DNA of 64,000 bases from Paracoccus aerodenitrificans (lineage in GTDB: Bacteria; Pseudomonadota; Alphaproteobacteria; Rhodobacterales; Rhodobacteraceae): the NCBI RefSeq assembly GCF_027913215.1, contig NZ_CP115784.1, positions 3,233,501-3,297,500 on the forward strand, in the 5' to 3' direction. Position 1 is the first letter of the stretch; each line of letters begins with the position of its first letter. This document shows positions 31,584-33,552 of the stretch, piece by piece. The translations under genes were made by a program, and so were the position numbers. The notes under the pieces are model-generated. The model made no database searches. It was not told the DNA's origin and saw only the letters and a list, made by a program, of their open reading frames with translations.

Positions 31584-31726
31584 CGGGCACAGGCCAGAGC
31601 GCCGCCACTCGATCCGGTTCGATACCGTCAGCAGGTGGTTAGAATGGGATGCAGATTCTTGCTGATTGCACCTTTCGGTTCTGCATTTAAAGTGGCGTTG
31701 TCTCACCGAAATTGCGACAAGGCGTC

Positions 31727-32452
31727 ATGTCCGTCTGCAACATCCATTTCCTGAATGCGCGTCACGGCCTGACCGGTGTCATGCCGGAAATCCGTGCCGC
31801 CGCCCGCGAAGCGATCGCTGTGGCGTCCGAACATGTCGATCTGCCGGATGTGGATCTGACCATCCGCGCAGGTTCCGGCGATGCCGTGATCTCCGGCTGG
31901 GGGGTGGGCGGTTTCGCACCTGCACCGGGCGAGATTCAACTGACGGTCGATCCACAGAAATTCGGCCCCGACGCGCTCATTCGCATTCTGGTGCATGAAC
32001 TCCACCACCTGATCCGCTGGGACGGTCCGGGCTATGGAAAATCTCTGGGCGAAGCGATGGTGACCGAAGGGCTCGCAGGTCATTTCGTGCTTCAGATCCT
32101 CGGCGGCAAGCCCGATCCGTGGGACGCCGTCACCCCGGCACCGGGACTGACACGGCGGGCGATGAATGAGTGGTCGCGGCTCGGCTATGACCATGCCGAA
32201 TGGTTCTTCGGCACCGGTAAGACGATTCGCCGTTGGAGCGGGTACGGCCTCGGTCACAGGCTGGTCGCACAATATCTGAGCGATAATCCCGGAGAGGACG
32301 CGATCACCCTCGCCACCGCCCCGGCCGACCGGTTCCGCGGTACGATGCGCATTCTGTCCAAGGAGGATGCCGGATCAGAGGATGATACCGGCCCCGATCC
32401 CGCCATTGAAACCAAGCCAGACCCCGAACAACCCGCATCTGACGCTGAATAA
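31727..32452 (+). CDS. DUF2268-type zinc metalloprotease-like protein
   Basis: A 241-residue predicted cytosolic metallopeptidase. The zinc motif HELHH is at residues 90-94 in ALIRILVHELHHLIRW, and GEAMVTEGLAGHF about 20 residues later offers the third, acidic ligand. This arrangement matches DUF2268 proteins. The tail after about residue 205 is acidic and Pro-rich (GSEDDTGPDPAIETKPDPEQP), probably disordered. Start chosen at the ATG 31727 with a weak AAGG upstream. The role is unknown. A repeat copy follows its stop codon. Confidence 0.8.
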   Translation: MSVCNIHFLNARHGLTGVMPEIRAAAREAIAVASEHVDLPDVDLTIRAGSGDAVISGWGVGGFAPAPGEIQLTVDPQKFGPDALIRILVHELHHLIRWDGPGYGKSLGEAMVTEGLAGHFVLQILGGKPDPWDAVTPAPGLTRRAMNEWSRLGYDHAEWFFGTGKTIRRWSGYGLGHRLVAQYLSDNPGEDAITLATAPADRFRGTMRILSKEDAGSEDDTGPDPAIETKPDPEQPASDAE

Positions 32453-32529: not shown

Positions 32530-33552
32530 TCAGCCCTTCTGCAAATAATCCCGGCCAAGGATTTCAGCCACCTGAACCAGGTTCAGCGCCGACCCCTTGC
32601 GCAGATTATCCGCGACGATCCACAGGCTCAGCCCGTTTTCGACCGTGGAATCCTGCCTGATCCGCGATACGAAAGTCGCGAATTCGCCGACCGACTCGAC
32701 GGGGGTGACATAGCCGCCATCCTCATGCTTATCGACCACCAGCAGGCCCGGAGATTCACGCAGAATATCGCGTGCCTCATCCTCATCCAGAAAATCCTCG
32801 AACTCGATATTCACCGATTCCGCATCCCCGACAAAGCTCGGCACACGCACAGAGGTCACCGCAAGCCGGATCGACCGGTCGAGGATCTTCTTCGTTTCTG
32901 CCATGATCTGCCATTCGGCGCGGCTTGACCCGTCCTCCATGAACTCGCCGACCTGCGGGATGATGTTGAAGGCGATCTGGCGGGGCAGGTGGTGCGGCGC
33001 GACCTCCTGTCCGGGAACATACAGACCCTTGGTCTGGTTCCACAGCTCATCCATAGCCTCTTTTCCCGCGCCGGAGAGGGATTGATAGGTCGAGACCACG
33101 ACGCGGCGGATGCGGGCACGCTCATGCAGGGGCTTCAGCACTGCCACAAGTTCAGCCGTGGCCGGATCGGGGCAGGCGACGACCATCCGTTCGCGATAAG
33201 CCTCAATCGCTCTGGCATTGACCTCGGGGACGACCAGTGGCACCGAGGGGTCCATCCGGAACGCATCCGAACTGTCGATGACGATACATCCCGCATCCGC
33301 TGCCAGAGGGGCGTATTTCCGCGCCGCCTCGGTATCCAGAGCGAACAGCGCCATATCGCAGCCGGCGAAATCGAAACTGTCGATATCGCGGACCTTCAGA
33401 TCCCGGTCGCCGAAACTGACTTCGGAACCGATAGAACGGCGCGGGCCAAGCGCAATGACCTCATCGGCAGGAAATTCGCGCTCTGCAAGAATATCGAGAA
33501 TTTCGCGGCCCAGATTATCCGTGGCCCCGGCGACGGCGATTTTATAGCCCAT
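32530..33552 (-). CDS. Aspartate-semialdehyde dehydrogenase homologue lacking catalytic residues
   Basis: 340 residues, full-length ASADH fold with VVVSTYQSLSGAGKEAMDELW and DSTVENGLSLWIVADNLRKGSALN. By eye alignment with the family's A-N-P-N-C-S-T-x-Q, this protein reads A-C-P-D-P-A-T-A-E at residues 126-134, so the catalytic Cys is Pro130. The family GHS/GHA-E-S-V is GDAESV here, replacing the catalytic His with Asp243. The NADP loop GATGxVG is GATDNLG (Asp12). The frame is intact, so it looks like a conserved pseudoenzyme, not a decayed gene. It should not be annotated as active Asd. Confidence 0.85.
   Translation of the reverse strand: MGYKIAVAGATDNLGREILDILAEREFPADEVIALGPRRSIGSEVSFGDRDLKVRDIDSFDFAGCDMALFALDTEAARKYAPLAADAGCIVIDSSDAFRMDPSVPLVVPEVNARAIEAYRERMVVACPDPATAELVAVLKPLHERARIRRVVVSTYQSLSGAGKEAMDELWNQTKGLYVPGQEVAPHHLPRQIAFNIIPQVGEFMEDGSSRAEWQIMAETKKILDRSIRLAVTSVRVPSFVGDAESVNIEFEDFLDEDEARDILRESPGLLVVDKHEDGGYVTPVESVGEFATFVSRIRQDSTVENGLSLWIVADNLRKGSALNLVQVAEILGRDYLQKG

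Follow-up and report, generated by a model that had tools for sequence, protein, structure and literature searches.

The window, a 64,000-nucleotide stretch of the Paracoccus aerodenitrificans genome (G000, 99.98% complete), encodes P0001, a β-type aspartate-semialdehyde dehydrogenase (Asd) homologue that lacks both the catalytic cysteine and the catalytic histidine of its family. P0001 is the single β-type gene of the genome, which also carries a single γ-type Asd gene. We consider it very likely that the β enzyme was displaced by the γ type and then inactivated. The fuller reading, in which a transferred γ-Asd displaced the β enzyme and the latter was retained as a pseudoenzyme keeping much of its substrate pocket, is in our view probable. 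Paracoccus would then be a single genus in which an essential enzyme was probably supplanted by a transferred, distantly related counterpart and the old one kept as a pseudoenzyme; the genomes that hold both a canonical β gene and a γ gene, and the proteins that have lost the cysteine, would be surviving steps of that path. A search of titles and abstracts of the open-access literature (subscription papers lay outside its scope) found no description of this Paracoccus case.

P0001, a β-type Asd homologue without the catalytic cysteine and histidine

The frame of P0001 is open over 340 codons on the minus strand (33552 to 32530), and the plus-strand frame across the same interval is interrupted by a stop. 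Over its full length, the translation scores above the curated NCBIfam cut-offs of TIGR01296 asd_B (359.7 bits, cut-off 324.2) and PRK14874 (409.4 bits, cut-off 223). It falls below those of the γ-type model TIGR01745 (50.3 bits, cut-off 402.9) and of the Usg models PRK05671 and PRK08040 (255 and 247.1 bits, cut-offs 284 and 273). Both Semialdhyde_dh domains of Pfam were detected, the dimerisation domain PF02774 spanning residues 139–319. The description of P0001 as a full-length 340-residue Asd homologue, given in an earlier, sequence-only reading, therefore holds, and since both scores exceed the cut-offs, automatic naming as asd is to be expected, as that reading had warned. In the genomes with an inactive form, family models such as TIGR01296 thus count one asd too many, a possible source of error in metabolic models and in predictions of gene essentiality.

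The closest solved relatives by sequence are Asd enzymes, with Vibrio cholerae Asd II first. An AlphaFold model built from a 40-row alignment (mean pLDDT 83.6, pTM 0.81) is weak at about residues 161–200 and 271–290, both within the C-terminal half, and has a helix beginning at residue 130. A Foldseek search of the PDB with this model returned V. cholerae Asd II chains as the top three matches (TM 0.87–0.88 by query length), and the Pseudomonas USG-1 homologue 2hjs at rank 23.

Table 1. Features at and around P0001 (positions in the window)
Feature	Position	Strand	Basis
β-type Asd homologue P0001 without catalytic Cys and His, 340 aa	32530..33552	-	translation, profile matches, alignments
Codon 12: Asp for middle Gly of Rossmann GxxGxxG	33517..33519	-	genus reading
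Codon 127: Cys where canonical genus proteins carry Asn	33172..33174	-	alignments; Cys in 5/16 inactive forms
Codon 130: Pro at the family's nucleophile Cys site	33163..33165	-	alignments, genus reading
Codon 243: Asp at the family's acid-base His site	32824..32826	-	alignments, genus reading
LivF-like ABC transporter ATPase gene (ORF from TTG), 72 bp upstream of P0001	33625..34437	-	
Convergent neighbour, predicted Zn protease DUF2268	31712..32452	+	

Five alignments to solved Asd enzymes, locally ungapped at both sites, place Pro130 in the column of the nucleophile (the Cys of NPNCST) and Asp243 in that of the acid-base histidine (the His of GH[SA]E), in agreement with the two replacements originally read from the sequence. 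The same alignments put Cys127 three residues before the nucleophile position, again as first read. Among the 16 inactive Paracoccus proteins described below, site 127 is Ser in ten, Cys in five and Gly in one, so Cys127 is not a conserved substitute nucleophile; its low frequency and its offset rule out a relocated nucleophile. The replacement of the Rossmann glycine by Asp12 is real in P0001, although it does not stand as a trait of the group: site 12 is Thr in six, Ser in five and Gly in four of the 16, and Asp is particular to this genome. The claim of three independent losses was thus too strong, since Gly12 is variable in the inactive forms and, in one lineage, the cysteine was seemingly lost before the histidine. 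Excerpts of a study of Haemophilus influenzae Asd (PMC3276109) give C136S less than 0.01% and H277N 1.0% activity, and assign substrate binding to Glu243 and Arg270 and phosphate binding to Lys246 and Arg103. The positions aligned with these four binding residues are kept in most inactive forms.

Inactive β proteins and γ-type Asd in Paracoccus

A second, complete asd, which a non-catalytic P0001 had led the sequence-only reading to seek, is present as an intact γ-type gene (C5:2859048-2860166; 556.7 bits, cut-off 402.9), about 0.4 Mb from P0001, whose product carries the GGNCT and RCHSQ motifs. A Semialdhyde_dhC search of G000 also brought up this gene. No second β-type Asd was found in G000; the other match to P0001 is a 330-aa ORF that we take to be ArgC-like.

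Across 125 Paracoccus genomes, γ-Asd scores above the cut-off in 20, with GGNCT in all 20 proteins, and the β gene is found in 124, the exception being G017, which is 71% complete. All 124 β proteins were read at the active-site positions. Cysteine and histidine are kept in each of the 104 genomes with a β gene and no γ-Asd. All 20 γ-carriers keep the β gene; both residues are lost in 16 and both kept in four (G021, G024, G064 and G140). The histidine is replaced by Asp (12) or Gln (4), and the cysteine by Ala (6), Gly (6), Pro (2) or Thr (2). Because the double loss is common to 16 genomes, with every protein 339 or 340 residues long, it is beyond chance or sequencing error; with the low dN/dS given below, this also rules out a pseudogene. 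Around the substrate, Gln157, Glu219 and Lys222 are kept in all 20 γ-carriers, Arg236 in 18 and Arg99 in 16. None of the 16 inactive forms has kept Asn129, and the pocket is therefore incomplete. In two γ-less genomes, the canonical β asd is frameshifted towards its C-terminus (L248 in G031 and L249 in G146); as the Asd reaction is essential, these are probably assembly errors.

The γ gene has likely been transferred into Paracoccus. Six of the 120 listed homologues of the γ protein are named to other genera, at 76–79% identity (two Ramlibacter, and Variovorax, Aquincola, Curvibacter and Ottowia), all presumably Burkholderiales; another listed homologue, at 85%, is assigned to Paracoccaceae only. 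Of 394 genomes sampled from the family to which G000 belongs, spread over 393 genera, four carry γ-Asd, G000 included; in the other three, the β proteins retain Cys and His and the γ proteins lie on a long branch. Both the names and the family sample point to transfer, the donor and the direction being putative. Of the 20 γ loci, the eight compared (G000, G030, G085, G019, G021, G024, G140 and G064) have neighbours in common, including recQ, a pattern in favour of a single acquisition or of one locus having spread. In G064, the γ-type asd and the canonical β-type asd lie together on one 707-kb contig (C1; L052, L095).

On the β side, a LivF match lies upstream of the gene on the same strand in nine of the 12 genomes of the Asp group; none was found in the upstream 1.5 kb in G084, G130 and G085. 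The association of the β gene with an amino-acid-type ABC transporter ATPase may be a matter of positional chance. The Gln-group gene of G019 has neighbours common to the canonical γ-carriers G021, G024 and G140.

Order of the losses and constraint on the inactive proteins

A β tree was built from all 20 γ-carriers, 23 γ-less genomes and three outgroups, with chosen active-site columns omitted. The 16 inactive proteins cluster (support 86/84, not starred), so that relatives with the same kind of loss, Asp or Gln for His, do group together, a check that the sequence-only reading had proposed for the Pro/Asp substitutions. The cluster lies within a larger group (89/95, not starred) that also holds canonical G021, G024 and G140; the fourth canonical γ-carrier, G064, is placed elsewhere. 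When database proteins were added, P0018 and P0065, which have lost the cysteine and kept the histidine, joined the inactive group (97/98), and P0062, with Ser for Cys and His kept, fell outside it with G140, G021 and G024 (98/97). These positions suggest that the cysteine was lost first, and such an order seems to hold in one lineage. The β trees allow a single origin of the inactive state in Paracoccus, and therefore the 16 genomes cannot be counted as so many separate events. An rpoB-rpoC tree, midpoint-rooted and covering 40 genomes (17 γ-carriers), separates the Asp group from the Gln group and sets canonical G021 within the latter; several of its deep branches are weak (0.68–0.95). The γ-asd of G130 groups with Gln-type genomes and its β gene with the Asp type (L035, L066), which may be read as a sign of γ gene exchange. 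Given this placement and the rpoB-rpoC tree, a gene may have been exchanged or the residues lost more than once. One database protein, P0015, joins a canonical N-terminal half to an inactive-type C-terminal half, probably by recombination or chimeric assembly.

Pairwise dN/dS ratios were calculated by NG86, at high synonymous distances (the Asp group has a median pS of 0.49). Among the inactive forms, the 66 pairs of the Asp group have a median of 0.182 and the 6 pairs of the Gln group one of 0.151, compared to 0.164, 0.127 and 0.091 in three chosen sets of 12 canonical β genes, and 0.160 and 0.118 for the γ genes that accompany the inactive forms. The closest pair of the Gln group stands at 0.058, and the closest three of the Asp group at 0.068, 0.337 and 0.181. 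Should the Asp group have inherited the loss from a common ancestor, its pairs record post-loss evolution only. Median dN is 0.151 in the Asp group versus 0.039–0.075 in canonical β genes. With lengths of 339–340 residues and median dN/dS of 0.15–0.18, the inactive forms are not decaying, and the selection that had been proposed to act on the remainder of the protein is evident.

The constraint is unevenly distributed. Among 106 canonical proteins (the frameshifted G031 and G146 omitted), 211 columns are invariant in at least 105, and 116 of these are unchanged across all 16 inactive proteins. The unchanged share is 56% for residues 1–60, 31% for 61–125, 34% for 126–165, 62% for 166–230, 71% for 231–290 and 79% for 291–340; constraint is thus best retained in the C-terminal half, which contains the dimerisation domain. 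Ten invariant columns are altered in all 16, five of them being 127, 129, 130, 131 and 243. At sites 12, 73, 74, 94 and 96, which we presume to lie on the cofactor side, 12 to 15 of the 16 proteins have lost the canonical residue. Codon adaptation to rpoB has a median of 0.658 in inactive β genes (n=13) versus 0.726 in canonical ones (n=27; Mann-Whitney p 0.00017, uncorrected for kinship), and of 0.715 for γ in the same 13 genomes. It hints at lower expression of the inactive β, with the canonical γ-carriers G021 (0.664) and G024 (0.662) as low as the inactive forms.

Candidate roles and comparison with Usg

A comparable state occurs in the Usg proteins. E. coli Usg (usg b2319) has PDSLT in place of PNCST, with Ser at the cysteine site, and retains the histidine; in 2hjs, the USG-1 homologue of Pseudomonas aeruginosa, Ala takes the place of the cysteine and Asp that of the histidine. 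Among 396 sampled Pseudomonadota genomes, γ-Asd was found in 133, of which 60 have a β match and 73 have none at E <= 1e-60, a threshold that a very diverged β could escape. Besides G000, the β protein was read in 54 of the 60 (G672, G686, G801, G853 and G903 omitted). The cysteine is lost in 38: all 19 of family f70, all 16 of f75 and one each of f100, f103 and f111; it is kept in all six of f66 and all ten of f79. We take f70, f75 and f79 to be Pseudomonas-type, Enterobacteria-type and Vibrio-type, respectively. The His to Asp change is seen in every one of the 19 f70 proteins, with Pro (12) or Ala (7) at the cysteine site, so that 12 carry the same Pro/Asp pair as P0001; the histidine is kept in ten of the 16 f75 proteins. 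The 16 β proteins read from γ-less genomes with a β match all keep both residues. The γ-asd and the Cys-less β gene lie on the same strand, 94 to 1565 bp apart, in the 19 f70 genomes (L314 to L330, L339, L362), and on one strand 40 bp apart in G739 (L360). A tie between γ-Asd and cysteine loss is partly expected because Asd is essential and, with kinship allowed for, it rests on few events.

A quick tree of 58 proteins over all columns sampled 11 of the 16 inactive Paracoccus proteins and 18 of the 38 Cys-less Usg proteins. It rejects a single clade of the two (AU test p 2.07e-89), so that two state changes are needed; several end branches are long, and within the gammaproteobacterial Usg set the cysteine loss may have had more than one origin. 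Direct membership of P0001 in Usg is ruled out by the same result. Judged from these sequences, the state of P0001 is convergent with that of the Pseudomonas-type Usg proteins and of separate origin, and the Paracoccus proteins would serve as an independent replicate for Usg. Excerpts of one paper (PMC6358828) mention a link of Salmonella usg to intracellular survival; the literature searched yielded no defined molecular function for Usg.

In the history that we propose, P0001 is a descendant of the β-type Asd native to Paracoccus. The γ-Asd, for which a Burkholderiales-like donor is probable, would have entered an ancestor at a recQ-linked site, as the shared neighbours and the trees suggest, and would have taken over the essential Asd reaction. 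The β protein would next have lost its Cys130 and, after that, its His243, with Asp taking the place of the histidine in one branch and Gln in a second; the intermediates support this order. The gene was not discarded: under purifying selection the protein has conserved its length, a large part of the C-terminal dimerisation half and the pocket residues Gln157, Glu219 and Lys222, usually with Arg236 and Arg99. Given what is retained, a dimeric pseudoenzyme that binds a ligand or a partner would be the most likely mechanism; the specific role, a dimer binding an aspartate-pathway ligand or a partner without turnover, is put forward tentatively. Such a second function may already have been present in the ancestral β-Asd.

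What is retained of the pocket could instead serve new chemistry, in which Asp243 and a reshaped loop, rather than the Cys-His pair, act on a related substrate in another reaction. Asp resembles a selected residue, replacing His in 12 of the 16 inactive Paracoccus proteins and in every f70 protein, and Gln157, Glu219 and Lys222 are unchanged in the 20 γ-carriers. However, four genomes have Gln rather than Asp, the mix of Ala, Gly, Pro and Thr where the nucleophile stood hardly suits a new one common to the group, and the presumed cofactor-side residues are mostly lost; a new enzyme is therefore unlikely. We give equally little credit to P0001 as a subunit or regulator of the γ-type Asd, acting through mixed oligomers or gating of activity. 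No Cys-less β protein was seen in the γ-less genomes read (0 of 16 in the phylum, 0 of 104 in the genus), and the two genes are close neighbours in f70 and G739, but the genes of G000 are far apart and β and γ differ strongly, P0001 scoring only 50.3 bits on the γ model. Moreover, the 73 of 133 γ-carriers without a β match at the above threshold imply that γ-Asd in general needs no such partner. The suggestion that P0001 regulates or scaffolds the true Asd fares poorly for the same reasons, the true Asd being the distant γ type.

If selection had relaxed and the redundant gene were slowly decaying, this would account for the greater amino-acid change and the lower codon adaptation relative to canonical β genes. 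Such decay is most improbable, as all 16 frames are open at 339–340 residues, the genus has no γ-carrier without a β gene and dN/dS is far below 1. Displacement followed by retention as a pseudoenzyme remains our preferred reading. In a broader version, which we regard as doubtful, gain of γ-Asd would repeatedly free β-Asd from catalysis and reveal a hidden non-catalytic function; Cys to Ala/Pro with His to Asp would be a selected convergent state, reached at least twice (Paracoccus and Usg), with steps preserved in Paracoccus and close metagenomic relatives.

Compared to the canonical β-Asd (TIGR01296) of Paracoccus, P0001 is equal in length and alike in its C-terminal half, with at most 71% identity; relative to canonical Paracoccus and Rhodobacteraceae enzymes, it lacks the nucleophile, the acid-base histidine, the binding asparagine and parts of the presumed cofactor site. 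V. cholerae Asd II (2qz9, 2r00), its nearest solved relative by sequence and predicted fold, retains Cys and His, unlike P0001, as do the four canonical Paracoccus γ-carriers. The Vibrio-like f79 β proteins likewise keep both residues beside a γ-Asd in all ten read. Usg (PRK05671, PRK08040) and P0001 share the β-type Asd fold, a replaced catalytic cysteine and a genome with γ-Asd. P0001 further resembles the Pseudomonas-type Usg (2hjs, f70) in its His to Asp change, whereas E. coli Usg retains the histidine. In contrast, Gln157 is kept in P0001 and lost in the f70 and f75 proteins read, and γ-asd lies beside the usg-type gene in f70 genomes but 0.4 Mb from P0001 in G000.
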